Shown here piece after piece: positions 6,377 through 24,637 of a stretch of 64,000 nucleotides of DNA (positions within the stretch are counted from its first letter, which is position 1; the number at the start of each line of letters is the position of its first letter). The DNA is taken from NCBI RefSeq assembly GCF_036178845.1, contig NZ_CP108070.1, forward strand, positions 9,734,001-9,798,000. The letters run 5' to 3'. The notes below the pieces were generated by a model, which saw only the letters and a program-made list of their open reading frames with translations, did no database searches and was not told the origin of the DNA. Position numbers and translations under genes: made by a program. This DNA is from Streptomyces sp. NBC_00271. Lineage in GTDB: Bacteria > Actinomycetota > Actinomycetes > Streptomycetales > Streptomycetaceae.

Positions 6377-7363
6377 TCAAGATCGTTGATCCAGCGCCCG
6401 GGGGTGATGCAGCACCCATCCCTGCCACGCCGACTCCACCATCTCCCGGACCCCGCGCCGCGCGCTCCAGTCGAGTTCCCGCGCGGCCAGGTCGGCCGAG
6501 GCGACCGCGCGCGGCGCGTCCCCGGGCCGGCGCGGCTCGACGACCGGTCGCCGGGTGTCCCCGCTGACCTCGCCGATCAGCGTGAGCAGTGCACGTACCG
6601 AGACCCCTTCGCCGCGGCCGATGTTCGCCGTGAGGTCGCCGCTCGCGCCGCCGGCCAGCCGCCGGGCCGCCGCGAGGTGTGCCTCGGCGAGGTCGGCGAC
6701 ATGGATGTAGTCACGGACGCAGGTGCCGTCCGGCGTCGGGTAGTCGTCGCCGAAGATCCGCGGGGCCTCGTCGCGGGTGAGGCGGTCGAAGACCATCGGG
6801 ATCACGTTGAACACACCGGTGTCGGCCAGCTCGGGCGTGGCCGCACCCGCCACGTTGAAGTAGCGCAGGCACACGGTCGCGATGCCGTGGGCCCGGCCCG
6901 CCGCGCGGACCAGCCACTCCCCGGCGAGCTTCGTCTCGCCGTACGGGCTCATGGGCGCACAGGGGGTGTCCTCCGTGATGAGGTCCACATCCGGGTTGCC
7001 GTAGACGGCGGCGGACGAGGAGAAGACGAAGCGCTTGACGCCGGCCCCGGCGACCGCCTCCAGGAGCGTCGCGAGCCCGCCCACGTTCTCCTGGTAGTAG
7101 CGCGTCGGCTGGGCCACGGACTCGCCGACCTGCTTGCGCGCGGCGAGATGCACCACACCCGTCACCGCGTGCTCCGCGAGGACCCGCTTGAGCAGGTCCC
7201 CGTCCAGCGACGAGCCCTGTACCAGCGGGATGCTCTCCGGAAGCCGGTTCGGAACCCCGGCCGAGAGGTCGTCGAGGGCGACGACGCGCTCCCCGGCCTC
7301 CGCCATCGCCCGCGCCACGTGTGCCCCGATGTATCCGGCCCCGCCTGTGATCAGCCATGTCAT
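6377..7363 (-). CDS. galE: UDP-glucose 4-epimerase
   Basis: 328 residues, a short-chain dehydrogenase fold of normal GalE length. The NAD site is GGAGYIG at residues 7-13, the catalytic serine lies in SSSAAVYG, and the Tyr-x3-Lys pair in SPYGETK. The sugar-nucleotide segment TCVRDYIHVADLAEAH is typical. It interconverts UDP-glucose and UDP-galactose in the cytosol. It is divergent from the phosphotransferase/glycosyltransferase run starting at 7622 and may feed UDP-galactose to that pathway. The minus-strand frame continues open far upstream to 9592, but that is GC-driven antisense; the ATG at 7363 begins the recognisable domain. Confidence 0.92.
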   Translation of the reverse strand: MTWLITGGAGYIGAHVARAMAEAGERVVALDDLSAGVPNRLPESIPLVQGSSLDGDLLKRVLAEHAVTGVVHLAARKQVGESVAQPTRYYQENVGGLATLLEAVAGAGVKRFVFSSSAAVYGNPDVDLITEDTPCAPMSPYGETKLAGEWLVRAAGRAHGIATVCLRYFNVAGAATPELADTGVFNVIPMVFDRLTRDEAPRIFGDDYPTPDGTCVRDYIHVADLAEAHLAAARRLAGGASGDLTANIGRGEGVSVRALLTLIGEVSGDTRRPVVEPRRPGDAPRAVASADLAARELDWSARRGVREMVESAWQGWVLHHPRALDQRS

Positions 7364-7607
7364 GGACGACCACCCTATGTCGGTCCGCGGCCGGTGGCGC
7401 CGCTGCCGGCCATCGATCCGACCGCCCTGCCCCGCTACGGGACGGTCTGGAAGGGAGTCGCGATCAATGACGCGAATAGTGCGTTCTGCGAGTGCGGGTT
7501 TGTGGCGGGACCCCCGGATCACGGATGATGATCGCGGCGGAGGCGCTACGCAGATGTGGTTGATCGCGCAGTGAACGGGCGGTGAACGCCTGCTTCTCAT
7601 CATCCGA

Positions 7608-7613
7608 TAGCCT
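7608..7613 (+). promoter_or_regulatory. putative -10 element for the phosphotransferase operon (possibly leaderless)
   Basis: TAGCCT at 7608-7613 lies only eight bases before the ATG at 7622. A TGAAC-like -35 candidate occurs near 7583. If used, transcription would start at or next to the ATG, giving a leaderless mRNA, which fits the lack of a ribosome site before 7622. Confidence 0.35.
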
Positions 7614-7621
7614 CTGCCGAC

Positions 7622-9529
7622 ATGCCGCCCAGCGGCCTGAGCCCCCTCGGGCCTGGGGCCGGGGCCTTCCCACCACGTACACGCCCGGCGCGAGGCCGCG
7701 TCGGCACCCAGGGAGTGAGTTCGCTGTCGACCGCCATCCTCACCGGCCAGCCGGTCCCCGGATCGTCGCTCGAGAGCGATCTGCGGTCGCTCGGCTTCGA
7801 CGTGCGGCTCGCCGGCGAAGCCGGTGACGCCGAGACACTGCTGGCCGCCGTACCGGCGGACCAGCGGGTCGCCGTCGTCGACGCCCGCTTCGTGGGGCAC
7901 CTGCACGCACTGCGCCTCGGCCTCACGGACCCACGGTTCGCGGCCTCCGCACTGCCCGGCGCCGTATCGGTACAGCCCGAGGCCCGCCGGGCGCTGACCC
8001 GTGCCGTGGCCCGTGAGAGCTCCGCCTCCGGCGGCCTCGCCGTCGCCACCGACAACCTCGCCGAGCGCCTCACCGCGGCCCTCGACGCGGACGGCGTCGC
8101 CGTGTTCCGCCCCGAGCTCGGCACGCTCGTCGCCGTGGTCCCCACCGACCCGCAGGAGCGCAACGAGGCCCGGCAGGCCGTCTCCGCCGTGGACGACGAG
8201 GCCGTGCGCCTGCGCAGCGCGGTCAAGGCCCGCGACGGCTTCTTCACCACGTACTGCATCAGCCCGTACTCGCGCTACATCGCCCGCTGGTGCGCCCGTC
8301 GCGGCCTGACACCGAACCAGGTCACCACCGCTTCCCTGCTCACCGCGCTGATCGCCGCGGGCTGCGCCGCCACCGGCACCCGCGCCGGATTCGTCGCGGC
8401 CGGGCTGCTGCTCCTGTTCTCCTTCGTCCTGGACTGCACGGACGGGCAGCTCGCCCGCTACTCGCTCCAGTACTCGACGCTCGGCGCCTGGCTGGACGCG
8501 ACCTTCGACCGCGCCAAGGAGTACGCCTACTACGCGGGCCTCGCCCTCGGAGCCGCCCGCGGCGGCGACGACGTATGGGCCCTGGCGCTCGGCGCGATGA
8601 TCCTCCAGACCTGCCGGCACGTCGTGGACTTCTCCTTCAACGAGGCGAACCACGACGCCACCGCCAGCACCAGCCCCACCGCCGCCCTCTCGGACAAGCT
8701 CGACAGCGTCGGCTGGACGGTCTGGGTGCGCCAGATGATAGTGCTGCCCATCGGCGAACGATGGGCGATGATCGCCGTCCTCACGGCGCTGACGACCCCC
8801 CGCATCACCTTCTACGCGCTGCTCGTCGGCTGCGCGTTCGCCGCGACGTACACCACGGCGGGCCGGGTACTGCGCTCGCTGACCCGCAAGGCGCGGCGGA
8901 CCGACCGCGCGGCGCAGGCGCTGGCGGACCTCGCCGACTCGGGCCCCATCGCCGAGGCTGTGGCCTCGGGACCGGTCCGCAGGGCGAAGGCCCGCGCTTA
9001 TTCCGCGCCGCTTTGGGCCGCACTGGGCACCGTGATCCTGCTGGTCGACGTGTCGTTCCGGCAGTTCGGAAACTGGCAGATGATCGTCGGCGCCCTCGTC
9101 TACGCGGCCTGCGCGGGCCGCGCGGTCGCGCGCCCTCTCAAGGGCCCCCTCGACTGGCTGGTGCCCCCCTTCTTCCGCGCCGCCGAATACCTCACCGTTC
9201 TGGTACTGGCGGCTAAAGCCGATGTGAACGGAGCACTTCCTGCGGCTTTCGGCCTGGTGGCCGCCGTCGCCTACCATCACTACGACACGGTGTACCGCAT
9301 CCGCGGCAACGCCGGAGCCCCCCCGTACTGGCTGGTGCGGGCGATCGGCGGGCACGAAGGCAGGACGCTGCTGGTCACCGTCCTGGCCGTGCTGCTCACC
9401 GCCGCACAGTTCAAGGTCGCGCTCACGGTGCTCGCCGTGGCCGTGGCGCTGCTGGTGCTCGTCGAGAGCATCCGCTTCTGGGTGTCCTCCGGGGCCCCCG
9501 CCGTACACGATGAAGGAGAACCCGCATGA
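7622..9529 (+). CDS. large CDP-alcohol phosphatidyltransferase (DUF5941-type)
   Basis: 635 residues from the ATG at 7622; an in-frame GTG at 7715 would remove 31 poorly conserved residues. Residues about 35-195 form an N-terminal globular domain with weak nucleotidyltransferase character (AVVDARFVGHLHALRLG). Then comes the CDP-alcohol phosphotransferase motif DCTDGQLARYSLQYSTLG with DATFD, giving the D-x2-D-G-x2-A-R-x8-G-x3-D-x3-D metal site. The C-terminal half is a second block of hydrophobic helices, the layout I remember for DUF5941 proteins. It should transfer a phospho-alcohol from a CDP-alcohol to an acceptor at the membrane. It overlaps the next gene by ATGA, so the two are coupled. 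The substrate is not known. Confidence 0.8.
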   Translation: MPPSGLSPLGPGAGAFPPRTRPARGRVGTQGVSSLSTAILTGQPVPGSSLESDLRSLGFDVRLAGEAGDAETLLAAVPADQRVAVVDARFVGHLHALRLGLTDPRFAASALPGAVSVQPEARRALTRAVARESSASGGLAVATDNLAERLTAALDADGVAVFRPELGTLVAVVPTDPQERNEARQAVSAVDDEAVRLRSAVKARDGFFTTYCISPYSRYIARWCARRGLTPNQVTTASLLTALIAAGCAATGTRAGFVAAGLLLLFSFVLDCTDGQLARYSLQYSTLGAWLDATFDRAKEYAYYAGLALGAARGGDDVWALALGAMILQTCRHVVDFSFNEANHDATASTSPTAALSDKLDSVGWTVWVRQMIVLPIGERWAMIAVLTALTTPRITFYALLVGCAFAATYTTAGRVLRSLTRKARRTDRAAQALADLADSGPIAEAVASGPVRRAKARAYSAPLWAALGTVILLVDVSFRQFGNWQMIVGALVYAACAGRAVARPLKGPLDWLVPPFFRAAEYLTVLVLAAKADVNGALPAAFGLVAAVAYHHYDTVYRIRGNAGAPPYWLVRAIGGHEGRTLLVTVLAVLLTAAQFKVALTVLAVAVALLVLVESIRFWVSSGAPAVHDEGEPA

Positions 9530-10278
9530 TCGGCCTCGTGCTGGCGGCCGGCGCCGGACGGCGTCTGCGTCCCTACACCGACAGCCTCCCAAAGGCTCTG
9601 GTGCCGGTGGGACCCGAGGGCATGGAGGACAGCATCACGGTCCTGGACCTGACCCTCGGCAACTTCGCCGAGATCGGTCTGACCGAGGTCGGGATCATCG
9701 TCGGCTACCGCAAGGAAGCCGTGTACGACCGCAAGGACGCCCTGGAGGCCAAGTACGGCCTCAAGATCACCCTCATCGACAACGACAAGGCCGAGGAGTG
9801 GAACAACGCCTACTCCCTGTGGTGCGGCCGTGACGCCCTCAAGGACGGTGTGATCCTCGCCAACGGCGACACCGTGCACCCGGTCTCCGTCGAGAAGACG
9901 CTGCTGGCCGCCCGCGGCGACGGCAAGCGGATCATCCTCGCCCTCGACACGGTGAAGAAGCTCGCCGACGAGGAGATGAAGGTCGTCGTCGACCCCGACA
10001 AGGGCGTCCGGAAGATCACCAAGCTGATGGAGCCCACCGAGGCCACCGGCGAGTACATCGGTGTCACCCTCATCGAGGGCGACGCCGCCGCCGACCTGGC
10101 CGACGCCCTGGAGACGGTGTGGGAGACAGACCCGCAGCAGTTCTACGAGCACGGTTACCAGGAGCTCGTCAACCGCGGCTTCAAGATCGACGTGGCACCG
10201 ATCGGCGACGTCAAGTGGGTCGAGATCGACAACCACGACGACCTCGCCAAGGGACGGGAGATCGCGTGCCAGTACTGA
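9526..10278 (+). CDS. sugar/alcohol-phosphate nucleotidyltransferase (LicC/NTP_transferase family)
   Basis: 250 residues. The nucleotide-binding signature is at the very N-terminus: LVLAAGAGRRLRPYTDSLPKALVPVG (G-x-G-x-R-x2-P-x-T...P-K). The metal-binding aspartate is in ILANGDTVHP, and NAYSLWCGRD matches the phosphocholine cytidylyltransferase (LicC) subgroup. The predicted reaction is NTP plus a phospho-alcohol or sugar-phosphate giving a nucleotide-activated donor and PPi. With two CDP-alcohol phosphotransferases and a glycerol-1-phosphate-dehydrogenase-like enzyme beside it, CTP is the likely nucleotide and a polyol phosphate the likely substrate (inference). It overlaps its upstream neighbour by 4 bases and the downstream one by 13. 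Confidence 0.8.
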   Translation: MIGLVLAAGAGRRLRPYTDSLPKALVPVGPEGMEDSITVLDLTLGNFAEIGLTEVGIIVGYRKEAVYDRKDALEAKYGLKITLIDNDKAEEWNNAYSLWCGRDALKDGVILANGDTVHPVSVEKTLLAARGDGKRIILALDTVKKLADEEMKVVVDPDKGVRKITKLMEPTEATGEYIGVTLIEGDAAADLADALETVWETDPQQFYEHGYQELVNRGFKIDVAPIGDVKWVEIDNHDDLAKGREIACQY

Positions 10279-11327
10279 CAAGGCTCATCCCCTCGCCGGT
10301 CGTCGTCGACATCCGCGCGGGTGCCCTGGACGACCTGGCGAGCGTGCTCTCCGACCAGCGGATCTCGCACTCCGGGAAGCTGGCCGTCGCCGTGAGCAAC
10401 GGCTCCGGCGCGAAGCTGCGCGAGCGGATCGCCCCGGCCCTGCCCAGCGCCACCTGGTACGAGGTCGGCGGCGGCACCCTCGACGACGCGATCCGGCTGG
10501 CCGGTGCCATCAAGGCCGGCCACTACGACGCGGTCGTGGGCCTGGGCGGCGGCAAGATCATCGACTGCGCGAAGTTCGCCGCGGCGCGCGTCGGCCTCCC
10601 GCTGGTCGCCGTGCCCACCAACCTCGCGCACGACGGCCTGTGCTCGCCCGTCGCGACCCTCGACAACGACGCGGGCCGCGGCTCCTACGGTGTGCCGAAC
10701 CCGATCGCGGTCGTCATCGACCTCGATGTGATCCGGGACGCCCCCGCACGGTTCGTGCGCTCCGGCATCGGCGACGCCGTCTCCAACATCTCCGCGATCG
10801 CGGACTGGGAGCTGGCCAACCGCGTCAACGGCGAGAAGATCGACGGTCTCGCGGCCGCGATGGCACGCCAGGCCGGAGAGGCCGTACTGCGCCACCCCGG
10901 CGGCATCGGCGACAACGACTTCCTCCAGGTGCTCGCCGAGGCACTGGTCCTCAGCGGGATCGCCATGTCGGTGTCGGGCGACTCACGGCCCTCGTCGGGC
11001 GCCTGCCACGAGATCAACCACGCCTTCGACCTCCTCTTCCCCAAGCGCGCGGCCAGCCACGGCGAGCAGTGCGGTCTGGGCGCGGCCTTCGCGATGTACC
11101 TGCGGGGGGCGCACGAGGAGTCGGCGTACATGGCCGAGGTGCTGCACCGGCACGGGCTGCCGGTGCTGTCCGAGGAGATCGGGTTCACCGTGGACGAGTT
11201 CGTACAGGTCGTGGAGTTCGCTCCGCAGACCCGGCCGGGCCGGTACACGATCCTCGAACACCTCGACCTGAAAACCAACCAGATCAAGGACATCTACTCC
11301 GACTATGCCAAGGCCATCAGTAGCTGA
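10266..11327 (+). CDS. iron-containing/glycerol-1-phosphate dehydrogenase-like enzyme
   Basis: 353 residues from the GTG at 10266, inside the previous gene. The dehydroquinate-synthase-like fold is shown by the NAD(P) site VVGLGGGKIIDCAKFAA, the substrate loop VPTNLAHDGLCSPVA and metal ligands in SSGACHEINHAFD and ASHGEQCG. This pattern matches sn-glycerol-1-phosphate dehydrogenase (EgsA/AraM) better than glycerol dehydrogenase or alcohol dehydrogenase IV. It would reduce dihydroxyacetone phosphate to sn-glycerol-1-phosphate, the enantiomer not used in ordinary bacterial lipids. The flanking CDP-alcohol enzymes suggest that this polyol phosphate is activated and polymerised or lipid-linked. 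The assignment is by motif; stereochemistry needs assay. Confidence 0.75.
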   Translation: MPVLTRLIPSPVVVDIRAGALDDLASVLSDQRISHSGKLAVAVSNGSGAKLRERIAPALPSATWYEVGGGTLDDAIRLAGAIKAGHYDAVVGLGGGKIIDCAKFAAARVGLPLVAVPTNLAHDGLCSPVATLDNDAGRGSYGVPNPIAVVIDLDVIRDAPARFVRSGIGDAVSNISAIADWELANRVNGEKIDGLAAAMARQAGEAVLRHPGGIGDNDFLQVLAEALVLSGIAMSVSGDSRPSSGACHEINHAFDLLFPKRAASHGEQCGLGAAFAMYLRGAHEESAYMAEVLHRHGLPVLSEEIGFTVDEFVQVVEFAPQTRPGRYTILEHLDLKTNQIKDIYSDYAKAISS

Positions 11328-12084
11328 ACTCCGCCCCGTCGTTCATCCCGCAGGGGTGAAGGACCGGCGCAGCGGTGAGCATTGGGCGGGACGCCTGTAC
11401 ATGCGAGAGATCTCGCTGCGCTGCGACCGCTACCTGGTGAACACCAGGATCACGCCCAACCAGCTCACGTACCTGATGACTGTCTTCGGCGTGCTCGCCG
11501 CCCCGGCCCTGCTGGTGCCGGGGATCCCGGGCGCCGTGCTCGGCGTGCTCATGGTCCAGCTCTACCTGCTGCTCGACTGTGTCGACGGTGAGATAGCGCG
11601 CTGGAAGAAGCAGTTCTCGCTCGGCGGGGTCTACCTGGACCGGGTCGGTGCCTATCTGACCGACGCCGCGGTGCTCGTGGGCTTCGGCCTGCGCGCCGCC
11701 GATCCCTGGGGTTCCGGGCGGATCGACTGGCTCTGGGCCTTCCTCGGCACCCTGGCGGCCCTCGGCGCGATCCTGATCAAGGCCGAGACCGACCTCGTCG
11801 GTGTCGCCCGCCACCAGGGCGGCCTGCCGCCGGTCAAGGAGTCGGCGTCCGAGCCGCGCTCGTCCGGCATGGCGCTGGCCCGCAGGGCCGCCGCCGCGCT
11901 GAAGTTCCACCGGCTGGTGCTCGGCATCGAGGCGTCCCTGCTGATCCTGGTGCTGGCCATCGTGGACTCGGTGCGCGGAGACCTGTTCTTCAGCCGCCTC
12001 GGCGTCGCGGTCCTGGCCGGCATCGCCATCCTCCAGACCGTGCTGCACCTCGTGTCCATCCTTGCCTCCAGCAGGCTGAAGTGA
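11305..12084 (+). CDS. CDP-alcohol phosphatidyltransferase family membrane protein
   Basis: 259 residues. The signature DCVDGEIARWKKQFSLGG followed by YLDRVGAYLTD gives the full D-x2-D-G-x2-A-R-x8-G-x3-D-x3-D set. About five or six hydrophobic helices surround it. It starts at an ATG 23 bases inside the dehydrogenase gene, so translation is coupled. This is the second such enzyme within 4 kb. Having two suggests sequential transfers, for example a priming phospho-alcohol onto a lipid and then chain units. The acceptor cannot be told from sequence. Confidence 0.82.
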   Translation: MPRPSVAELRPVVHPAGVKDRRSGEHWAGRLYMREISLRCDRYLVNTRITPNQLTYLMTVFGVLAAPALLVPGIPGAVLGVLMVQLYLLLDCVDGEIARWKKQFSLGGVYLDRVGAYLTDAAVLVGFGLRAADPWGSGRIDWLWAFLGTLAALGAILIKAETDLVGVARHQGGLPPVKESASEPRSSGMALARRAAAALKFHRLVLGIEASLLILVLAIVDSVRGDLFFSRLGVAVLAGIAILQTVLHLVSILASSRLK

Positions 12085-12965
12085 GTACGGCGATGAAGGT
12101 CGGCGCGGTCATCATCACCATGGGCAACCGCCCCGACGAACTCCGAGCCCTGCTGGACTCCGTCGCCAAGCAGGACGGCGACCGGGTCGAGGTGGTCGTG
12201 GTCGGCAACGGCTCGCCCGTGCCGGACGTCCCCGACGGCGTACGCACGGTCGAGCTGCCCGAGAACCTCGGCATACCCGGCGGCCGCAACGTGGGCATCG
12301 AGGCCTTCGGCCCCGGTGGCACGGACGTCGACATCCTGCTCTTCCTCGACGACGACGGCCTCCTCGCCACCCACGACACCGCCGAGCTGTGCCGCCTGGC
12401 CTTCGCCGCCGACCCCGAGCTCGGCATCATCAGCTTCCGGATCGCGGACCCCGAGACCAAGGAGACCCAGCGCCGCCACGTACCGCGGCTGCGCGCCTCC
12501 GACCCGATGCGCTCCTCGCGCGTGACCACCTTCCTCGGTGGCGCCAACGCGGTCCGTACGAAGGTCTTCGCCGAGGTCGGCGGACTTCCGGACGAGTTCT
12601 TCTACGCCCACGAGGAAACCGACCTGGCATGGCGGGCCCTCGACTCGGGCTGGATGATCGACTACCGGTCCGACATGGTGCTGTACCACCCCACGACCGC
12701 CCCTTCGCGGCACGCGGTCTACCACCGCATGGTGGCCCGCAACCGCGTCTGGCTCGCGCGCCGAAACCTTCCCGCACCGCTCGTCCCCGTCTACCTCGGC
12801 GTCTGGATGCTCCTGACCCTGGCCCGCCGTCCCTCCGGACCTGCCCTGAAGGCGTGGTTCGGCGGTTTCAAGGAGGGCTGGACCAGTTCCTGCGGGCCCC
12901 GGCGTCCCATGAAGTGGCGTACGGTGTGGCGGCTGACCCGCCTCGGTCGTCCTCCTGTCATCTGA
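12081..12965 (+). CDS. glycosyltransferase family 2 protein
   Basis: 294 residues from a GTG that overlaps the upstream stop (GTGA). The GT-A fold is seen in VGAVIITMGNRPDELRALL, the DXD-like FLDDDG, the acceptor loop FLGGANAVRTKVF and the catalytic ED-like segment YAHEETDLAWRALDSG. It most resembles rhamnosyl/galactofuranosyl-type GT2 enzymes that elongate surface glycans on the cytoplasmic face. A short amphipathic or hydrophobic stretch near the C-terminus (LVPVYLGVWMLLTLA) may anchor it to the membrane. Gene order puts it just ahead of the exporter, consistent with glycan assembly. Confidence 0.85.
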   Translation: MSTAMKVGAVIITMGNRPDELRALLDSVAKQDGDRVEVVVVGNGSPVPDVPDGVRTVELPENLGIPGGRNVGIEAFGPGGTDVDILLFLDDDGLLATHDTAELCRLAFAADPELGIISFRIADPETKETQRRHVPRLRASDPMRSSRVTTFLGGANAVRTKVFAEVGGLPDEFFYAHEETDLAWRALDSGWMIDYRSDMVLYHPTTAPSRHAVYHRMVARNRVWLARRNLPAPLVPVYLGVWMLLTLARRPSGPALKAWFGGFKEGWTSSCGPRRPMKWRTVWRLTRLGRPPVI

Positions 12966-12990
12966 CAAGCGGCTACGCCATCTGACAAGC
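12959..12990 (+). repeat. 12-bp direct repeat before the ABC exporter genes
   Basis: catctgacaagc occurs at 12959-12970 and again at 12979-12990, an exact repeat with a 20-bp period. The first copy contains the stop codon of the glycosyltransferase gene. It may be a small duplication or a binding site on one face of the helix. Confidence 0.6.
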
Positions 12991-13087
12991 TCGTTTCCGG
13001 GAGCACGTTCGCCGTACTCCGGTGTCCCGTGCCCTCAGCCCCTGCCCGACCAGGCCGTGCGCATCATGAAGACGAAGGTTTCCATTT

Positions 13088-14017
13088 GTGAGTGAGACAA
13101 CGCATGACGGAGCTGTCGCGGTGAGCGACCGTCCGTCCCCCGATGACGGGCTCTCCGCGGCCGACCTGGCCGCCAAGTACGGGCTCGCGGTGAGCGGCGC
13201 CCGGCCCGGACTCGTCGAGTACGTGCGTCAGCTGTGGGGGCGGCGGCACTTCATCCTCGCCTTCTCGCAGGCAAAACTCACCGCGCAGTACAGCCAGGCC
13301 AAGCTCGGCCAGCTGTGGCAGGTGGCGACGCCACTGCTGAACGCGGCCGTGTACTACTTCATCTTCGGCGTGATCCTCAAGGCCAGCCGGGGCATGTCGC
13401 ACGACACCTACATCCCGTTCCTGGTGACCGGTGTGTTCGTCTTCACGTTCACGCAGAGCTCGATCATGGCGGGCGTCCGTGCGATCTCGGGCAACCTGGG
13501 GCTGGTGCGCGCGCTGCACTTCCCGCGCGCCTCGCTGCCCATCTCCTTCGCGCTCCAGCAGCTCCAGCAGCTGCTGTTCTCGATGATCGTGCTGTTCGTC
13601 GTGGTGCTCGGTTTCGGCAGCGCGCCGGGTCTGTCCTGGCTGCTGATCGTCCCGGTGCTGGTGCTGCAGTTCCTCTTCAACACCGGCCTCGCGCTGATCG
13701 TGGCGCGCATGGGCGCCAAGACGCCGGACCTCGCCCAGCTGATGCCGTTCATCCTGCGGACCTGGATGTACACATCGGGCGTCATGTTCTCCATCAGCAA
13801 CGTGCTCGTCGGACGGCCCGAGTGGTTCATCCGCGCGCTCCAGGTGAACCCGGCCGCGATCTACATGGACCTGATGCGCTTCGCCCTCATCGACGGCTAC
13901 GGCGCCTCGAACCTGCCGCCCCATGTGTGGGCCATCGCCACCTTCTGGGCCGTGGTCGTCGCCGCCGGCGGGTTCGTGTACTTCTGGAAGGCGGAAGAGA
14001 GGTACGGCCGTGGCTGA
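13088..14017 (+). CDS. ABC-2 type polysaccharide/teichoic-acid export permease (TagG/Wzm-like)
   Basis: 309 residues starting at a GTG at 13088. Six membrane helices are visible after a charged N-terminal region. The early segment RHFILAFSQAKLTAQYSQAKLGQLWQ matches the amphipathic interface helix of Wzm/TagG permeases. Helices include LLNAAVYYFIFGVIL, YIPFLVTGVFVFTF, SMIVLFVVVLGFG and FWAVVVAAGGFVYFW. It pairs with the ATPase encoded directly after it (8-base overlap) to export a lipid-linked glycan or teichoic-acid-like polymer across the cytoplasmic membrane. The upstream synthesis genes supply the probable substrate. Confidence 0.88.
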   Translation: MSETTHDGAVAVSDRPSPDDGLSAADLAAKYGLAVSGARPGLVEYVRQLWGRRHFILAFSQAKLTAQYSQAKLGQLWQVATPLLNAAVYYFIFGVILKASRGMSHDTYIPFLVTGVFVFTFTQSSIMAGVRAISGNLGLVRALHFPRASLPISFALQQLQQLLFSMIVLFVVVLGFGSAPGLSWLLIVPVLVLQFLFNTGLALIVARMGAKTPDLAQLMPFILRTWMYTSGVMFSISNVLVGRPEWFIRALQVNPAAIYMDLMRFALIDGYGASNLPPHVWAIATFWAVVVAAGGFVYFWKAEERYGRG

Positions 14018-14783
14018 GCAGGCATCCTCCATCCCGACCGTGATCGCGGACGAGCTGCACATCGTCTACCGCGTGAACGGCGCCAAGACCGGCAAGGGCA
14101 GCGCCACCGCCGCCCTCAGCCGCATCATCAAGCGCGGCGAGGAGCGGGGCGTACGCAAGGTGCACGCCGTCAGGGGCGTCTCCTTCACGGCCTATCGCGG
14201 CGAGGCCATCGGCCTGATCGGCTCCAACGGCTCCGGCAAGTCCACGCTCCTGCGTGCCATCGCCGGTCTGTTGCCCGCCGAGAAGGGCAAGGTCTACACC
14301 GACGGCCAGCCCTCGCTGCTCGGCGTGAACGCGGCCCTGATGAACGACCTCACGGGCGAACGCAACGTCATATTGGGCGGGCTCGCGATGGGCATGTCCC
14401 GCGAGCAGATCAGGGAGCGCTACCAGGAGATCGTCGACTTCTCGGGCATCAACGAGAAGGGCGACTTCATCACCCTGCCGATGCGCACCTACTCCTCCGG
14501 CATGGCGGCGCGGCTGCGCTTCTCCATCGCGGCCGCCAAGGACCACGACGTCCTCATGATCGACGAGGCCCTCGCCACCGGAGACCGCTCCTTCCAGAAG
14601 CGCTCCGAGGAGCGGATCCGCGAGCTGCGCAAGAGCGCGGGCACGGTGTTTCTGGTCAGCCACAACAACAAGTCGATCCGCGACACCTGCGACCGCGTGC
14701 TCTGGCTGGAGCGCGGTGAGCTGCGGATGGACGGTCCGACCGAAGAGGTCCTCAAGGAGTACGAGAAGTTCACGGGCAAGTAG
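14010..14783 (+). CDS. ABC transporter ATP-binding protein (TagH/Wzt-like)
   Basis: 257 residues from the GTG at 14010, with AGAGG upstream. Walker A is GSNGSGKSTLLRA, the signature is YSSGMAARLRFSIA, and Walker B is DVLMIDEALATGD with the switch histidine in FLVSHNNKSI. The N-terminal extension before Walker A and the YSSGM signature variant are characteristic of Wzt/TagH exporters of O-antigen and teichoic acids. There is no C-terminal carbohydrate-binding domain, so recognition would be of the TagH/KpsT kind. It powers the adjacent permease. A strong hairpin follows immediately, ending this transcription unit. Confidence 0.9.
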   Translation: MAEQASSIPTVIADELHIVYRVNGAKTGKGSATAALSRIIKRGEERGVRKVHAVRGVSFTAYRGEAIGLIGSNGSGKSTLLRAIAGLLPAEKGKVYTDGQPSLLGVNAALMNDLTGERNVILGGLAMGMSREQIRERYQEIVDFSGINEKGDFITLPMRTYSSGMAARLRFSIAAAKDHDVLMIDEALATGDRSFQKRSEERIRELRKSAGTVFLVSHNNKSIRDTCDRVLWLERGELRMDGPTEEVLKEYEKFTGK

Positions 14784-14794
14784 CTCGTAGTAGC

Positions 14795-14828
14795 CAGGGC
14801 CCCGCCGCAACGATTCGGCGGGGCCCTG
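14795..14828 (+). terminator. rho-independent-type hairpin after the exporter operon
   Basis: Perfect 13-bp arms (cagggccccgccg at 14795-14807, complement at 14816-14828) with an 8-base loop, 12 bases past the ATPase stop codon. It isolates the glycan-export operon from the hopanoid operon. Confidence 0.85.
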
Positions 14829-15079
14829 CGTCTGCAAAGGAAACGCCAACTCCTGCTGGCCTTAGGAATCTTGACACCAATCGGTGTGTTGTTGTGATGT
14901 GCAGGACACCCCGACGAACCTTGCTGCGTTGTACAACGTAAGCTGTACCGGTGCTGAATCGCGGCAAGTGGGGCGATACTGCGCGACACCCGGCACCGGC
15001 GCGCCGCGCGGAGTCCCGGGCGGCGTGTCCGAAAAGGGCACCATTGGGTCGGCAGTGTAGAACGGGAGATGTGACGGCA
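14829..15079 (+). promoter_or_regulatory. promoter region of the hopanoid operon, with a 12-bp palindrome
   Basis: This stretch lies between the terminator and the first hopanoid ORF. A TTGACA at 14871-14876 could be a -35 box, but no good -10 follows at 17-18 bases. A perfect 12-bp palindrome cgttgtacaacg at 14927-14938 is a candidate operator. I see no gene in it. Confidence 0.4.
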
Positions 15080-15145
15080 ATGGCTACGGAAACTCTCCAG
15101 CTCCGCGACGCGTGTGCCGTCCCCGCGCCGGGCGGCGAGCGGTGA
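15080..15145 (+). CDS. possible 21-residue leader peptide coupled to hpnC
   Basis: An ATG at 15080, preceded by GGGAG at about 15064-15068, opens a 21-codon frame (MATETLQLRDACAVPAPGGER). Its TGA overlaps the GTG start of hpnC as GTGA. The overlap is the same kind that links the rest of the operon, so ribosomes may reach hpnC by coupling. It could also be chance; the peptide is too short for family recognition. The frame is open upstream to a GTG at 14951. Confidence 0.4.
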   Translation: MATETLQLRDACAVPAPGGER

Positions 15146-16044
15146 CCCAAGCCGGTACGGCGCGCACGGGTGAGACGGAGCGCGGAACGCTCGACAAGGC
15201 CGCGGGCGAGAACTTCCCCGTGGCACCCTTCTTCCTGCCCCAGGCCTGGCGCGACGATCTGATGGCCGTCTACGGCTTCGCGCGCCTCGTCGACGACATC
15301 GGTGACGGCGACCTCGCCCCGGGCGGCGCGGACGCCAGGTTGCTCGGCGTGTCGCCCGAAGAGGCCGAGGACCGTCTCGTCCTCCTGGACGCCTTCGAGG
15401 CTGACCTGCACCGCGTGTTCGATTCGACGCCGCACCACCCGCTGCTGCGCCGCCTGCAGCCCACGGTCCGCCGCGCGGACCTCACCCCCGAACCCTTCCT
15501 CGGGCTGATCGCGGCCAACCGTCAGGACCAGCTGATCAAGCGCTACGAGACCTATGGCGACCTCGTGGCCTACTGCGAGCTGTCCGCCAACCCCGTCGGC
15601 CGCCTGGTGCTGTCCGTCACCGGCACCTCCACGCCCGAGCGGATCCGCCGCTCGGACGCGGTGTGCACGGCGCTGCAGATCGTCGAGCACCTCCAAGACG
15701 TCGCCGAGGACCTCGGCCGCGACCGCATCTACCTGCCGGCCGAGGACATGAAGCGCTTCCATGTCCAGGAGGCGGATCTCGCCACGGCCACAGCGGGCGC
15801 ATCGGTGCGCGCGCTGGTTGCCTACGAAACAGAACGCGCGCGCCACCTCCTGAATGAAGGCACCCCCCTCGTGGGTAGCGTCCACGGCAGGTTGAAGCTG
15901 CTGCTCGCGGGGTTCGTGGCAGGGGGAAGGGCGGCGATCCGCGCGATCGCCGCCGCCGAATACGACGTACTTCCCGGCCCGCCCAAGCCCGGCAAGCTCC
16001 AGTTGCTGCGCGAGGTGGGAGTGACTCTGCGAGGAGAGGGGTGA
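15142..16044 (+). CDS. hpnC: squalene synthase component HpnC (hydroxysqualene synthase)
   Basis: 300 residues from the GTG at 15142. The trans-isoprenyl-diphosphate synthase fold is shown by FARLVDDIGDGD (first Asp-rich site) and LQIVEHLQDVAEDLGRDRIYLP (second site). HpnC works with HpnD and HpnE: HpnD makes presqualene diphosphate from two farnesyl diphosphates, HpnC turns it into hydroxysqualene and HpnE reduces that to squalene. This is the first enzyme of the hopanoid operon and overlaps hpnD by GTGA. The start could also lie at 15112 upstream, but the sequence there has no similarity. Confidence 0.92.
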   Translation: MTQAGTARTGETERGTLDKAAGENFPVAPFFLPQAWRDDLMAVYGFARLVDDIGDGDLAPGGADARLLGVSPEEAEDRLVLLDAFEADLHRVFDSTPHHPLLRRLQPTVRRADLTPEPFLGLIAANRQDQLIKRYETYGDLVAYCELSANPVGRLVLSVTGTSTPERIRRSDAVCTALQIVEHLQDVAEDLGRDRIYLPAEDMKRFHVQEADLATATAGASVRALVAYETERARHLLNEGTPLVGSVHGRLKLLLAGFVAGGRAAIRAIAAAEYDVLPGPPKPGKLQLLREVGVTLRGEG

Positions 16045-16991
16045 TCCGGACCGTGGAGTCGGAACAACACGTGTCCGCACCGGTACTCGCCGCTTACAGC
16101 TACTGCGAGGCAGTGACCGGTCAGCAGGCTCGTAATTTCGCCTATGGCATCAGACTTCTGCCGACGCCCAAGCGTCGTGCGATGTCGGCGCTCTACGCGT
16201 TCTCACGGCGTGTCGACGACATCGGCGACGGCGCGCTGGCAACGGATGTGAAGGCGGCGCGGCTCGAGGACACCCGGGCTCTGCTCGCCCGGGTCCGCGA
16301 GGGCCGGGTCGACGAGGACGACACCGACCCGGTCGCGGTCGCGCTCAGCCACAGCGCCGCGTACTTCCCGGTGCCGCTGGGTGGCCTCGACGAACTCATC
16401 GACGGCGTCCTGATGGACGTACGCGGTGAGACGTACGAGACCTGGGACGACCTGAAGGTGTACTGCCGGTGCGTGGCCGGGGCGATCGGGCGGCTCTCGC
16501 TCGGCGTGTTCGGTACGGAACCGGGGGCGCGCGGCGCCGAGCGCGCGCCGGAGTATGCGGACACGCTCGGGCTCGCGCTCCAGCTCACCAACATCCTGCG
16601 GGACGTACGGGAGGACGCCGCCGGCGGGCGCACCTATCTGCCCGCCGACGACCTCGCGAAGTTCGGCTGCTCGGCCGGGTTCAACGGCCCGACCCCGCCC
16701 GAGGGCTCCGACTTCGCGGGCCTCGTCCACTTCGAAGTGCGACGGGCCCGCACCCTTTTCGCCGAGGGCTACCGGCTGCTGCCCATGCTCGACCGGCGCA
16801 GCGGCGCCTGCGTCGCGGCCATGGCCGGCATCTACCGCCGGCTTCTCGACCGCATCGAGCGGGAGCCGGAGGCCGTGCTGCGCGGCCGCGTCTCGCTGCC
16901 GGGGCGCGAGAAGGCGTACGTCGCCGTGCGCGGCCTCTCCGGTCTGGACGCCCGGCATGTCTCCCGGCGTACCGTCAGGAGGCGTACCTGA
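16041..16991 (+). CDS. hpnD: presqualene diphosphate synthase HpnD
   Basis: 316 residues. The two aspartate-rich sites are FSRRVDDIGDGAL and LTNILRDVREDAAGGRTYLP, typical of HpnD. It condenses two farnesyl diphosphates to presqualene diphosphate. An N-terminal motif SYCEAVTGQQARNFAYGIRLLP is characteristic of the family. It begins within the hpnC stop (GTGA), and its own TGA overlaps the ATG of a 46-residue ORF (TGATG), so the three are translationally linked. The protein has the usual length and no oddities. Confidence 0.93.
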   Translation: MIRTVESEQHVSAPVLAAYSYCEAVTGQQARNFAYGIRLLPTPKRRAMSALYAFSRRVDDIGDGALATDVKAARLEDTRALLARVREGRVDEDDTDPVAVALSHSAAYFPVPLGGLDELIDGVLMDVRGETYETWDDLKVYCRCVAGAIGRLSLGVFGTEPGARGAERAPEYADTLGLALQLTNILRDVREDAAGGRTYLPADDLAKFGCSAGFNGPTPPEGSDFAGLVHFEVRRARTLFAEGYRLLPMLDRRSGACVAAMAGIYRRLLDRIEREPEAVLRGRVSLPGREKAYVAVRGLSGLDARHVSRRTVRRRT

Positions 16992-17131
16992 TGGACAATA
17001 TGGGCCAAGGTGATTCCATCGGCGAAAAGCGGCACGCAACCCTCCGGCGCCGGGTGGCGTCCCTGACTGCGATGGCCTGCCGTGCACCGTTCAATCACCG
17101 CGGCACGGCCGCTGGGGAGGGTGCACGATGA
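16991..17131 (+). CDS. small DUF6380-type protein between hpnD and hpnE
   Basis: 46 residues (starts MDNMGQGDSIGEKRHATLRR, ends GTAAGEGAR). The ATG shares one base with the hpnD stop, and its TGA overlaps the hpnE ATG (ATGA at 17128-17131), so it fills the gap exactly and is coupled on both sides. It is basic, with no signal peptide or membrane helix. The sequence matches my memory of the DUF6380 family of short Streptomyces proteins, whose function is unknown. Position suggests a role in, or regulation of, squalene formation by HpnCDE, perhaps as a small partner. That role is an inference. Confidence 0.7.
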   Translation: MDNMGQGDSIGEKRHATLRRRVASLTAMACRAPFNHRGTAAGEGAR

Positions 17132-18543
17132 GCGAGGACACGCAGCCCACGGGGGCTTCGGGCCGCCCGGAAGGGGCCGGCGCCGTAGTGGTCGGCGGCG
17201 GGCTGGCCGGAATCACCGCCGCGCTCGCACTGGCCGACGCCGGGGTGCGTGTCACCCTGCTCGAAGGTCGGCCGCGGCTCGGCGGGCTCGCCTTCTCCTT
17301 CCAGCGCGGCGAACTCACCGTGGACAACGGACAGCATGTGTATCTGCGCTGCTGCACCGCCTACCGCTGGTTCCTCGACCGCATCGACGGGGCCTCGCTC
17401 GCGCCCCTGCAGGATCGTCTCGACGTGCCCGTTCTCGACGCCGAGGCGAAACCCGGGCGGCGGCTCGGCAGAATCGGCCGCAGCGCGCTGCCCGTACCTC
17501 TGCATCTCGCGCGCAGCCTGGCGACCTATCAGCATCTGTCGCTCGCCGAGCGCGCCAAGGTCGGCCGTGCCGCACTGGCGCTCAAAGCGCTCGATCTCGA
17601 CGATCCGGCCCTCGACGACCAGAACTTCGGCCAATGGCTCGCCGCACACGGTCAGTCGGAGCGTGCCGTCGAGGCACTGTGGGACCTGGTGGGGGTCGCC
17701 ACCCTCAACGCGGTGGCCGGCGACTCCTCGCTCGGGCTCGCCGCGATGGTGTTCAAGACCGGTCTGCTGTCCGACCCGGGCGCGGCCGACATCGGCTGGG
17801 CGCGCGTCCCGCTGGGCGAACTGCACGACACCCTGGCCCGCAAGGCGCTCGACTCCGCGGGCGTGCGTACCGAAGTCCGTACACGCGTCACCTCCATCTC
17901 CCCTAACGAGAACGGGCGTTGGAGCGTTCAGGTTCCCGGAGAGACGCTCGACGCCGACACCGTCGTCCTCGCCGTACCCCAGCGCGAGGCCCACGATCTG
18001 CTGCCCGAGGGAGCGCTCGACGCCCCCGAACGGCTGCTGGAGATCGGCACCGCGCCGATCCTCAACGTCCATGTCGTCTACGACCGGAAGGTGCTCGCGC
18101 GACCCTTCTTCGCCGCCCTCGGCTCCCCGGTGCAGTGGGTCTTCGACCGCACCGACGCGTCCGGACTGAGGGAAGGGCAGTACCTCGCCCTGTCGCAGTC
18201 GGCCGCCCAGGACGAGATCGACGAACCCGTCGCCGTGCTGCGCGAGCGCTATCTGCCGGAGCTGGAGCGGCTGCTGCCCGCCGCGCGCGGCGCGGAGGTG
18301 AAGGACTTCTTCGTGACCAGGGAGCGCACCGCGACGTTCGCCCCCACCCCAGGCGTCGGGCGGCTGCGGCCCGGCGCTCGCACCAGAGCCCCCGGCCTGT
18401 ATCTGGCCGGCGCGTGGACCGCCACCGGGTGGCCCGCGACCATGGAGAGTGCGGTCCGCAGCGGCGCCGGTGCGGCGCGAACCGCACTGGGGGCCCTGGG
18501 CCGGCCCCGCGACCACCTCCTCGCGTTCGAGGAGGCGGCCTGA
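17128..18543 (+). CDS. hpnE: hydroxysqualene dehydroxylase HpnE
   Basis: 471 residues of the flavin amine-oxidase fold. The FAD dinucleotide site is AVVVGGGLAGITAALALADAG followed by LEGRPRLGGLAFSF, and the C-terminal FAD motif is APGLYLAGAWTATGWPATMESAVRSG. HpnE reduces hydroxysqualene to squalene using FADH2, finishing the three-enzyme bacterial route. It begins inside the DUF6380 stop and ends TGATG, sharing one base with the next start. The first 20 residues are a flexible Gly/Pro-rich segment. Confidence 0.92.
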   Translation: MSEDTQPTGASGRPEGAGAVVVGGGLAGITAALALADAGVRVTLLEGRPRLGGLAFSFQRGELTVDNGQHVYLRCCTAYRWFLDRIDGASLAPLQDRLDVPVLDAEAKPGRRLGRIGRSALPVPLHLARSLATYQHLSLAERAKVGRAALALKALDLDDPALDDQNFGQWLAAHGQSERAVEALWDLVGVATLNAVAGDSSLGLAAMVFKTGLLSDPGAADIGWARVPLGELHDTLARKALDSAGVRTEVRTRVTSISPNENGRWSVQVPGETLDADTVVLAVPQREAHDLLPEGALDAPERLLEIGTAPILNVHVVYDRKVLARPFFAALGSPVQWVFDRTDASGLREGQYLALSQSAAQDEIDEPVAVLRERYLPELERLLPAARGAEVKDFFVTRERTATFAPTPGVGRLRPGARTRAPGLYLAGAWTATGWPATMESAVRSGAGAARTALGALGRPRDHLLAFEEAA

Positions 18544-19670
18544 TGCTCGACGAGCGCGCGGCAGACCCCCGCACCCCCGGTACCGCAACAAGAGGAGAGA
18601 CTGTGCCCACTGTGCCCCCGGCCGACAAGGCTGCCGACGCGGTGGACGTGACCGCGCTCCTGGAGCGCGGCCGGACCCTGGCCACACCGGTGCTGAAGGC
18701 GGCCGTCGACCGCCTGGCGTCGCCCATGGACACCGTCGCCGCCTACCACTTCGGCTGGATCGACGCCCAGGGCAACCCCGCGGACGGCGACGGCGGCAAG
18801 GCCGTACGCCCCGCGCTGGCCGTGCTCTCCGCGCAGGCCGCCGGTGCCGCCCCCGAGGTCGGCGTGCCCGGCGCGGTCGCGGTCGAGCTGGTGCACAACT
18901 TCTCCCTGCTGCACGACGACCTGATGGACGGCGACGAACAGCGCCGCCACCGCGACACCGTCTGGAAGGTGCACGGCCCCGCCCAGGCGATCCTCGTCGG
19001 TGACGCCCTGTTCGCGCTGGCCAACGAGATCCTCCTCGAACTCGGCACCGTCGAGGCCGGCCGCGCCACCCGCCGGCTGACCAGCGCCACCCGCGCCCTC
19101 ATCGACGGCCAGGCCCAGGACATCTCCTACGAGCACCGCGACCGCGTCAGCGTCGAGGAGTGCCTGGAGATGGAGGGCAACAAGACGGGCGCCCTGCTCG
19201 CCTGCGCCTGCTCCATCGGCGCGGTCCTCGGCGGCGCGGACGACCGCACCGCGGACACGCTGGAGAAGTACGGCTACCACCTCGGCCTGGCCTTCCAGGC
19301 CGTCGACGACCTCCTCGGCATCTGGGGCGACCCGGAGGCCACCGGCAAGCAGACCTGGAGCGATCTGCGCCAGCGCAAGAAGTCCCTGCCGGTCGTGGCG
19401 GCGCTCGCCGCGGGCGGGCCCGCCTCCGAGCGGCTCGGCGAACTGCTCGCCGAGGACGCCAAGGCCAGCGACTTCGAGAACTTCTCCGAGGAGGAGTTCG
19501 CCGTGCGCGCCGCGCTCATCGAGGAGGCGGGCGGCCGCGAGTGGACCGCCCAGGAGGCACGCCGCCAGCACACCATCGCCATCGAAGCCCTGGACGCCGT
19601 GGAGATGCCCGACCAGGTGCGGGCCCAGCTCGTGGCGCTCGCCGACTTCGTCGTCGTACGGAAGAGATGA
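18543..19670 (+). CDS. polyprenyl (farnesyl/geranylgeranyl) diphosphate synthase
   Basis: 375 residues from the ATG at 18543 (GAGGAGG upstream). A GTG at 18603 with AGAGGAGA just before it gives 355 residues and is equally plausible. The first Asp-rich motif is LLHDDLMDGDEQRRHRDTVW. The second is the variant FQAVDDLLGIWGD, with DDxxG instead of DDxxD. It extends DMAPP with IPP; operon context suggests farnesyl diphosphate for HpnD, although homologues are often called geranylgeranyl diphosphate synthases. Chain length depends on residues before the first motif (VELVHNFSLLHDD), which do not settle it. Confidence 0.88.
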   Translation: MLDERAADPRTPGTATRGETVPTVPPADKAADAVDVTALLERGRTLATPVLKAAVDRLASPMDTVAAYHFGWIDAQGNPADGDGGKAVRPALAVLSAQAAGAAPEVGVPGAVAVELVHNFSLLHDDLMDGDEQRRHRDTVWKVHGPAQAILVGDALFALANEILLELGTVEAGRATRRLTSATRALIDGQAQDISYEHRDRVSVEECLEMEGNKTGALLACACSIGAVLGGADDRTADTLEKYGYHLGLAFQAVDDLLGIWGDPEATGKQTWSDLRQRKKSLPVVAALAAGGPASERLGELLAEDAKASDFENFSEEEFAVRAALIEEAGGREWTAQEARRQHTIAIEALDAVEMPDQVRAQLVALADFVVVRKR

Positions 19671-19781
19671 TCACTATCGGTCGAATAAACCTCGCGTAGT
19701 CGCCGGCCGGTGCCGCGGAGGACACACGCACCGGCCGACGGCGGACCCAGCAGAGTCGTACCACTGCACGAAGGGGAAGCC

Positions 19782-21806
19782 ATGACAGCGACGACCGACG
19801 GAAGCACCGGGGCACTGCCGCCCCGCGCTGCCGCGGCCAGCGAAATCCACCCAGAGACGACTCCCGTGGCGGCCGGGACAGTCGAGACCCGAGACGTCGC
19901 CACGCACGCCATACAGCGCGCCACCGATTTCCTGCTCTCACGGCAGGACGCGGAGGGCTGGTGGAAGGGCGACCTCGAGACGAACGTCACGATGGACGCC
20001 GAGGACCTGCTCCTCCGCCAGTTCCTGGGAATCCGCGACGAGACGACCACACGCGCCGCCGGACTGTTCATCCGCGGCGAGCAGCGCGAGGACGGCACCT
20101 GGGCCACCTTCTACGGCGGCCCCGGCGAACTCTCCACCACCATCGAGGCGTACGTCGCCCTGCGGCTGGCCGGGGACGGCCCGGACGAGCCGCACATGGC
20201 GAGGGCGGCCGCCTGGATCCGCGAGCGGGGCGGCATCGCCTCGGCCCGCGTCTTCACCCGGATCTGGCTCGCCCTGTTCGGCTGGTGGAAGTGGGACGAC
20301 CTGCCCGAACTCCCGCCGGAACTCATCTACTTCCCGAAGTGGATGCCGCTCAACATCTACGACTTCGGCTGCTGGGCGCGGCAGACGATCGTGCCGCTCA
20401 CCGTCGTCTCCGCGAAGCGCCCGGTGCGGCCCGCGCCGTTCCCGCTCGACGAGCTGCACACCGACGCCGACAACCCCAACCCGGTCAAACCCCTCGCTCC
20501 CGTGGCGAGTTGGGACGGGGCCTTCCAGCGTCTCGACAAGGCCCTGCATCAGTACCGCAAGGTCGTCCCGCGCAGGCTGCGCCGGGCCGCGATGAACACG
20601 GCGGCGCGCTGGATCATCGAACGGCAGGAGAACGACGGCTGCTGGGGTGGCATCCAGCCACCCGCGGTGTACTCGGTCATCGCGCTGCACCTGCTCGGCT
20701 ACGACCTCCAACACCCCGTGATGCGTGAGGGGTTGGCGTCGCTGGACCGGTTCGCCGTCTGGCGCGAGGACGGCGCCCGGATGATCGAGGCCTGTCAGTC
20801 GCCGGTCTGGGACACCTGCCTCGCCACCATCGCGCTCGCCGACGCGGGCCTGCCCGCCGACCATCCGCAGCTGGTCAAGGCCGCGGACTGGATGCTCGGC
20901 GAGGAGATCGTGCGGCCCGGGGACTGGGCGGTGAAGCGGCCCCACCTTCCGCCCGGGGGTTGGGCCTTCGAGTTCCACAACGACAACTACCCCGACATCG
21001 ACGACACCGCCGAGGTCGCCCTCGCGCTGCGCCGCGTCCGCCACCACGACCCGGAGCGCGTCGAGCACGCCATCGGGCGCGGGGTGCGCTGGAACCTCGG
21101 TATGCAGTCCAAGGACGGCGGCTGGGGCGCCTTCGACGTCGACAACACCAGCGCCTTCCCCAACCGGCTCCCGTTCTGCGACTTCGGGGAGGTCATCGAC
21201 CCACCGTCCGCCGACGTCACCGCCCATGTGGTGGAGATGCTCGCGGTCGAGGGGCTCTCGCACGACCCGCGCACCCGCCGGGGCATCGAGTGGCTGCTCG
21301 CCCACCAGGAGCCGGACGGCTCGTGGTTCGGGCGCTGGGGCGTCAACTACGTCTACGGAACGGGGTCGGTGCTCCCGGCGCTGGTGGCCGCCGGACTGCC
21401 CGCCTCGCATCCGGCGATCCGCCGGGCCGTCGCCTGGCTGGAAACCGTCCAGAACGACGACGGCGGCTGGGGCGAGGACCTGCGCTCCTACCACGAGGCC
21501 GCCGAGTGGAGCGGCCACGGCGCCTCGACGGCCTCCCAGACCGGCTGGGCGCTGCTCGCCCTGCTGGCCGCGGGGGAGCGGGACTCCAAGGCGGTGGAAC
21601 GCGGGATCGCCTGGCTCGCGGAGACCCAGCTGGCGGACGGCTCCTGGGACGAGCCGTACTTCACTGGCACCGGGTTCCCGTGGGACTTCTCGATCAACTA
21701 CCACCTCTACCGGCAGGTCTTCCCGCTCACCGCGCTCGGCCGCTATGTCCACGGTGAACCGAGCTTCGTCCACGGCGAGTCGTTCGCCGAGGTCAAGGGG
21801 GGTTGA
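19782..21806 (+). CDS. shc: squalene-hopene cyclase
   Basis: 674 residues, a normal length for the cyclase. It cyclises squalene to hopene and hopanol on the membrane surface. The catalytic DxDD motif is D405-I-D407-D408 in NYPDIDDTAEVAL. QW-type repeats are frequent (for example QDAEGWW, QENDGCWGG, QSKDGGWGAFD, QNDDGGWGED, QLADGSWDE). The ATG at 19782 has AAGGGG upstream. 111 bases separate it from the prenyl synthase, the largest gap in the operon, so a secondary promoter is possible. Its TGA overlaps the next ATG. Confidence 0.96.
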   Translation: MTATTDGSTGALPPRAAAASEIHPETTPVAAGTVETRDVATHAIQRATDFLLSRQDAEGWWKGDLETNVTMDAEDLLLRQFLGIRDETTTRAAGLFIRGEQREDGTWATFYGGPGELSTTIEAYVALRLAGDGPDEPHMARAAAWIRERGGIASARVFTRIWLALFGWWKWDDLPELPPELIYFPKWMPLNIYDFGCWARQTIVPLTVVSAKRPVRPAPFPLDELHTDADNPNPVKPLAPVASWDGAFQRLDKALHQYRKVVPRRLRRAAMNTAARWIIERQENDGCWGGIQPPAVYSVIALHLLGYDLQHPVMREGLASLDRFAVWREDGARMIEACQSPVWDTCLATIALADAGLPADHPQLVKAADWMLGEEIVRPGDWAVKRPHLPPGGWAFEFHNDNYPDIDDTAEVALALRRVRHHDPERVEHAIGRGVRWNLGMQSKDGGWGAFDVDNTSAFPNRLPFCDFGEVIDPPSADVTAHVVEMLAVEGLSHDPRTRRGIEWLLAHQEPDGSWFGRWGVNYVYGTGSVLPALVAAGLPASHPAIRRAVAWLETVQNDDGGWGEDLRSYHEAAEWSGHGASTASQTGWALLALLAAGERDSKAVERGIAWLAETQLADGSWDEPYFTGTGFPWDFSINYHLYRQVFPLTALGRYVHGEPSFVHGESFAEVKGG

Positions 21807-22447: not shown

Positions 22448-22452
22448 GCCAG

Positions 22453-23475: not shown

Positions 23476-23479
23476 CGAC

Positions 23480-24637
<1,158 letters not shown>

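Follow-up and report, generated by a model that had tools for sequence, protein, structure and literature searches.

In the Bacillus wall teichoic acid pathway (TagD–TagB/F–TagGH), the donor is of the cytosolic, cytidine diphosphate (CDP)-glycerol type, glycerophosphate is transferred and export is of the TagGH type. The same three features are predicted for a block of seven genes (A to G, positions 7622-14783, + strand) in a 64,000-nucleotide (nt) stretch of the 12.28 Mb genome of Streptomyces sp. NBC_00271; this whole stretch is referred to below as the window. TagF-like genes accompany the system here too, at the level of the genome, but the block itself contains none and has instead the membrane CDP-alcohol phosphotransferases A and D. 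A further difference lies in the donor: in place of TagD and sn-glycerol-3-phosphate (G3P), the block has the gene pair B and C and, by prediction, sn-glycerol-1-phosphate (G1P). On balance, it is probable that the cluster makes, activates and exports part of a surface glycopolymer built on G1P, with B and C replacing TagD in the lineages that carry them. The genes are as follows:

A, 7622..9529, + strand: CDP-OH_P_transf plus DUF5941 (Pfam), with a nucleotidyltransferase-like N-terminal domain; start perhaps at 7715
B, 9526..10278, + strand: LicC-like nucleotidyltransferase (Pfam NTP_transferase)
C, 10266..11327, + strand: EgsA/AraM-type sn-glycerol-1-phosphate dehydrogenase (Pfam Fe-ADH_2)
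D, 11305..12084, + strand: variant CDP-alcohol phosphotransferase (Pfam CDP-OH_P_transf)
E, 12081..12965, + strand: family 2 glycosyltransferase (Pfam Glycos_transf_2)
F, 13088..14017, + strand: Wzm/TagG-type ABC permease (Pfam ABC2_membrane)
G, 13983..14783, + strand: Wzt/TagH-type ATPase (Pfam ABC_tran); the open reading frame opens at 13923 inside F, with a likelier start at ~14010

Families were assigned from Pfam, NCBIfam and the sequences of the Protein Data Bank (PDB), the last being used for A, B, C and, by alignment, the D family. These comparisons bore out the enzyme classes named in an earlier, sequence-only reading of this DNA: a G1P dehydrogenase (G1PDH)-like enzyme, a LicC-type nucleotidyltransferase, CDP-alcohol phosphotransferases, a family 2 glycosyltransferase and a Wzm–Wzt exporter. 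The seven tightly overlapping genes that it described are all present, and the packing is tight within A–E (overlaps of 4 nt for A/B, 13 nt for B/C, 23 nt for C/D and 4 nt for D/E) and within F–G (8 nt with 14010 as the start of G), but not across E and F, which are separated by a gap of 122 nt.

The order of events proposed in that reading, from G1P through a CDP-alcohol to transfer, glycosylation and export, is supported as a prediction. C would reduce dihydroxyacetone phosphate (DHAP) to G1P, from which B, with cytidine triphosphate (CTP), would form the mirror image of TagD's CDP-glycerol. A and/or D may then pass the phosphoglycerol unit to a lipid-linked acceptor at the inner face of the membrane, E would add sugar and F–G would export the product as a teichoic-acid-like wall or lipid-anchored glycopolymer, or as part of one. 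The donor made by B and C may also feed TagF-like enzymes encoded elsewhere, the pair taking TagD's place in the lineages carrying it. We infer, in short, a supply of CDP-activated G1P for a teichoic-acid-like glycopolymer, and with it the substrates, stereochemistry, nucleotide, acceptor, order of steps and export cargo.

The strongest single argument for this scheme is that B and C take the place of TagD next to an unchanged D–E pair and in company with the same TagF-like enzymes. Evidence at the genome level comes from a sample of 394 genomes of the class. C matched in 101 of these at E 1e-20, and exclusion of one weak match (G343; 31% over part of the protein) left 100 C genomes; D gave 137 matches and the TagF-like family PF04464 gave 157 at E 1e-20. 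The TagD model TIGR01518 matched 64 genomes at E 1e-15, and the name TagD is used here for the 30 that reach 100 bits, the 34 below being excluded. C and TagD so defined never coincide in the 394 genomes (P 1.3e-4; like the other P values, save those for genus and family counts, this ignores relatedness). TagF-like enzymes are found in 94 of the 100 C genomes as against 63 of the 294 others, and the association holds when counted by genus (32/34 C genera versus 28/103 others, P 1.8e-12) or by family (9/10 versus 13/38, P 0.003, 48 families taken). Altogether, 115 of the 157 TagF-like genomes carry C or TagD. A single genus label (g39) holds both solutions, with TagD in 14 genomes and C without TagD in two (G342 and G365). 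In the window's own genome PF04464 matches six times and TIGR01518 not at all at E <= 1e-3, and there is one clear IspD plus a match of 34 bits. D accompanies C in 91 of the 100 C genomes; both genes are present in all 40 genomes of the window's genus and the arrangement recurs, in part or whole, in other families, so the cluster is not a chance assembly.

The exchange can also be seen locus by locus. The named D loci are the best 80 of 571 D relatives and the counts cover the stretches fetched. Locus counts in this analysis are not fully independent, since L067 and L142 are very probably one contig. B and C are the donor genes in 17 loci, TagD in 14 and another nucleoside triphosphate (NTP) transferase in 32, with none seen in 17; no locus has two of these donor types, and C and TagD are found together in 0/80. 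Four of the TagD calls were checked on TIGR01518, two scoring above the cut-off of 165.4 bits (210 and 205) and two below it (159 and 124). One TagD locus (L203) has the order TagF-like, tagD, galE, D, E, whilst a Solirubrobacterales contig (L088) has A, DUF5941, B, C, D, E, F and G in the same order as the window. The third type of donor gene, a LicC/GlmU-like NTP transferase that we call CurtoNTP, stands in place of B and C or TagD beside D–E at L097:15036-15731 and in 31 other D loci, from Microbacteriaceae, Nanopelagicales and others.

Of the donor enzymes, C shares its dehydrogenase family with AraM of B. subtilis and archaeal EgsA, but no PcrB-type use is suggested for it and its partner is cytidylyltransferase-like. 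It scores 97.7 bits against Pfam Fe-ADH_2 (cut-off 28) and matches the Methanocaldococcus jannaschii G1PDH 4RGQ at E 2.6e-42. D123, H248, H265, R241 and P242 are invariant in all 58 aligned sequences (57 relatives plus the window), with H122 in 57; aligned with 4RGQ, D123, H248 and H265 are the Asp/His/His metal-site positions of the fold. The G1PDH-type stretches HDG and SRP-SG are also kept, the latter in 58/58. Reduction of DHAP to G1P by C is predicted from these features, its stereochemistry from the family of C alone. Among the top homologues of C, the named ones belong to Streptomyces, and the window's genome has no second full-length relative, two further matches being weak (E ~1e-4).

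For B, the best solved relative is LicC (CTP:phosphocholine cytidylyltransferase; 1JYK, E 5.4e-12), with which it shares an ND-x-NN-x-YSL stretch. W92, N93, N94, N113, D115 and D235 are kept in all 56 aligned proteins, the window's included, in an alignment where the N-terminal loop is absent from up to 11 gene calls owing to the choice of start. The likeness to LicC is one of sequence only, and B's partner genes point to glycerol phosphate. Of the 57 loci fetched, 55 have B directly next to C (the exceptions being L072 and L078), and we propose that it is a CTP:glycerol-1-phosphate cytidylyltransferase. Three Streptomyces genomes have an extra C between an rne-like gene and rplU (L077, L078 and L079), with B in two of them; in two of the three (G133 and G269) the extra C lies within ~10 kb of TagF-like genes. 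A duplicated nucleotidyltransferase is reported in 76 genomes in the Streptomyces pan-genome paper (PMC13118837).

A number of observations weigh against this account. C scores 244 bits on the NCBIfam G1PDH model NF002022, under the equivalog cut-off of 413, and is therefore of the G1PDH type rather than a certified G1PDH; the substrate and nucleotide of B cannot be read from its sequence. Of the TagF-like genomes, 42/157 have neither C nor TagD, from which it follows that other donors exist, and six of the 100 C genomes are without TagF-like genes at E 1e-20. The walls of Streptomyces are described as containing mainly teichulosonic acid and poly(diglycosyl phosphate), neither built on glycerol phosphate (PMC11481543), so that in this genus the cluster might yield a minor product, a linker or another molecule. 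Finally, a weak TIGR01518 relative (~63-68 bits) is present in 18 of the 40 Streptomyces genomes and at a looser limit C and 'TagD' coincide in those 18; one such relative scores 67.8 bits there and 67.8 on the heptose adenylyltransferase model. That protein (L198:508-1017) lies beside another CDP-alcohol phosphotransferase-like frame, named by eye, and the two possibly belong to a separate CDP-alcohol pathway.

The G1P donor scheme is chemically plausible, because two TagF-like capsule polymerases are reported to take both CDP-glycerol enantiomers (PMC5974469). The sequence-only reading had called G1P unusual in bacterial surface polymers, a wording that was rejected: lipoteichoic acid is described as a polymer of sn-glycerol-1-phosphate (PMC7086022), and the unusual feature would be a cytosolic, CDP-activated G1P donor. 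The stereospecific enzyme GlpQ is described in the same paper as cutting sn-3 polymer and leaving intact sn-1 polymer uncut. A bolder version, which we put forward tentatively and hold to be rather doubtful, is that a mirror-image, teichoic-type polymer is produced by Streptomyces along with many further actinobacteria: a polyglycerol phosphate, sn-1 in configuration and assembled in the cytosol from the CDP-sn-glycerol-1-phosphate of B and C, started by the cholinephosphotransferase-like A or a His-variant D. In Streptomyces hygroscopicus the lipoteichoic and wall teichoic acids are reported to be near-identical in structure, and the phylum to be without LtaS (PMC3196553); an sn-1 polymer would explain this in genomes without a clear TagD.

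The A and D proteins are nearest in the PDB to Archaeoglobus AF2299 and IPCT-DIPPS (4O6M, 4MND), with which they share the fold and the CDP-alcohol donor type, A also having a nucleotidyltransferase-like N-terminal domain. The differences are that B is a separate protein here, that D is without the fourth Asp of the motif and that A carries DUF5941. In the AlphaFold model of A (predicted local distance difference test, pLDDT, 87.8; under 50 for residues 1-33), residues 33-190 resemble IspD, and A together with DUF5941 can be aligned over the full membrane portion of the cholinephosphotransferase CHPT1. Identity is ~10-13%, however, and A differs from CHPT1/CEPT1 in being bacterial, in its extra N-terminal domain and in its donor, which is predicted to be CDP-glycerol. 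A five-sequence DUF5941 profile was considered as a marker of C loci and rejected, as it also picks up A proteins at TagD loci and elsewhere.

Although A and D were rightly placed in one family by the sequence-only reading, they are not equivalent. The window's A has the canonical motif (DCTDGQLAR-x8-G-x3-D-x3-D), and D-x2-D-G-x2-A-R-x8-G-x3-D-x3-D is found in 20/20 further Streptomyces A proteins. D retains the fold, the Pfam match and the first three Asp residues, but the fourth, taken as the catalytic base of the CDP-alcohol phosphotransferase family, is replaced (Ala116 in the window). Among 106 D proteins (loci L041-L160), 100 have His at this position and six have Ala; among 30 loci of the window's genus it is Ala in 27 and His in three. 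An acidic residue eight places past the third Asp is kept in 106/106. The state of D goes with that of A. Where A is without the motif (13 loci) or none is seen upstream (nine loci, over 4 kb available), D has His in 22/22, whereas A is canonical in all 22 loci with Ala (the window, L063, L080, L153, L159 and 17 Streptomyces loci; pooled with the window, Fisher P 2.5e-6, relatedness again ignored). The change to Ala apparently happened on only a few occasions. Our reading is that at least one of A and D must keep a working site and that His may serve in D; the reverse of this rule fails, because three Streptomyces with a His D also have a canonical A. D may also simply be inactive. It provides a natural experiment on the fourth Asp, namely whether this residue can be dispensed with or exchanged for His. 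At L053:7439-8278 and in 12 other loci, an A-family protein without any motif residue, apparently a pseudoenzyme, is kept beside DUF5941-like genes. The window's genome has a second D-family gene (L173:9415-10176; G000:C1 about 5773414), with no A, B, C or E within the fetched 19.5 kb.

E has a match in 69 of the 80 named D loci. G scores 183.6 bits on the NCBIfam TagH model PRK13546, below its cut-off of 320, although this is still the best-scoring family. A second copy of F, 71% identical, lies elsewhere in the window's genome in a locus with TagF-like genes. We considered whether F–G might be the known TagG/TagH pair of S. roseosporus and rejected this: that pair carries its own TetR gene, tagR, and the window's genome has a TetR–TagG–TagH group elsewhere (L172), to whose permease F is only 71% identical. 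The TagF-like groups of this genome include one with this second TagG/TagH and TetR gene (L171-L172) and another by obg-rplU-rne (L174).

Other products would account for part of these data. It is unlikely, though deserving of consideration, that the block makes a CDP-activated G1P donor for a minor lipid-linked primer, a linkage unit or a phosphoglycerol-modified glycolipid, with A acting on a lipid alcohol in the manner of a cholinephosphotransferase. Against this stand the strong TagF-like association, which suggests a polymer donor, and the Foldseek search with the A model, in which AF2299 is the top hit (E 3.4e-9) and 8ERO comes well below it (E 5e-3). Of the 'glycan or lipid' of the sequence-only reading, the glycan half is supported by related loci, which carry TagF-like, LCP-like, TarI-like, WecB/WecC-like and Wzm/Wzt genes and, in some cases, GlfT2, LicD-family and pyruvyltransferase genes (these last three named by Pfam, several of the others by eye). 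A membrane-lipid product is possible but has no specific support besides the A model's likeness to cholinephosphotransferase, and such a pathway was set aside.

More improbable again is a different donor altogether, C and B handling another polyol phosphate, or B taking G3P directly whilst C has a separate task. The sub-cut-off score of C, the breadth of the alcohol dehydrogenase IV superfamily and the 32 CurtoNTP loci, which show D's module to be compatible with other donor enzymes, all speak for it; the invariant D123/H248/H265 and SRP-SG of C, the G1PDHs as its best specific matches and the exchange with TagD, a glycerol-phosphate enzyme, speak against. A place in hopanoid metabolism, with F–G exporting a phosphoglycerol-hopanoid, is very improbable. 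The block lies directly upstream of hpnC in the window, and hpnC follows in seven of 17 named C loci (Kitasatospora and Streptomyces) and in L080, but the other ten C loci have no hpn match, nor have 39 of 40 loci of a separate set (within ~10 kb), and wall-glycan genes are the neighbours instead. Hopanoid export was rejected on the grounds that, among the loci seen, linkage to hpnC is confined to Streptomyces and Kitasatospora.

The S. coelicolor counterpart of the block is probably SCO6752-6758, judging by the gene numbers and by SCO6750 and SCO6751 on the flank; a literature search under the bare locus tags SCO6752-6758, assessed from its listing, found no paper on this function. SCO6750 is described as an isopentenyl diphosphate (IPP) isomerase (PMC6767563). 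A Streptomyces EgsA/AraM sequence was already part of a 2016 G1PDH phylogeny and alignment (PMC5059525), and the synteny in Streptomyces, the labels araM, tagG and tagH and a link to teichoic acid were published in 2026 (PMC13118837). No published proposal of the donor role of B and C was found in a search of partial coverage; the exchange with TagD, the altered motif of D, the A/D pattern and the resemblance of A's architecture to CHPT1 were likewise not found in the literature searched and appear to be new here. If the G1P donor scheme is correct, the stereochemistry of surface polymers in Gram-positives would be set by the donor module of the lineage. Cytosolic synthesis of the 'archaeal' enantiomer would then be a dedicated process in a very large group of bacteria. 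The scheme also makes testable the source of CDP-glycerol for Streptomyces TagF-like enzymes when there is no clear TagD.

The block lies between a divergent galE and hpnC of a hopanoid cluster. A promoter scan gave no sigma-70-like promoter in 7350-15300, and a terminator scan gave two terminator-like sites in 14845-14887, no better than chance. The galE gene, next to A, scores above the cut-off of its model and possibly supplies UDP-sugar for the block:

galE, 6377..7363, - strand: divergent neighbour of A (TIGR01179, 315.7 bits)

Directly downstream, at 15112-24637 of the window, is the standard Streptomyces hopanoid cluster (hpnC, hpnD, hpnE, prenyl transferase, shc, hpnG, hpnH and ispG), its genes named by eye except for two SQS_PSY genes.

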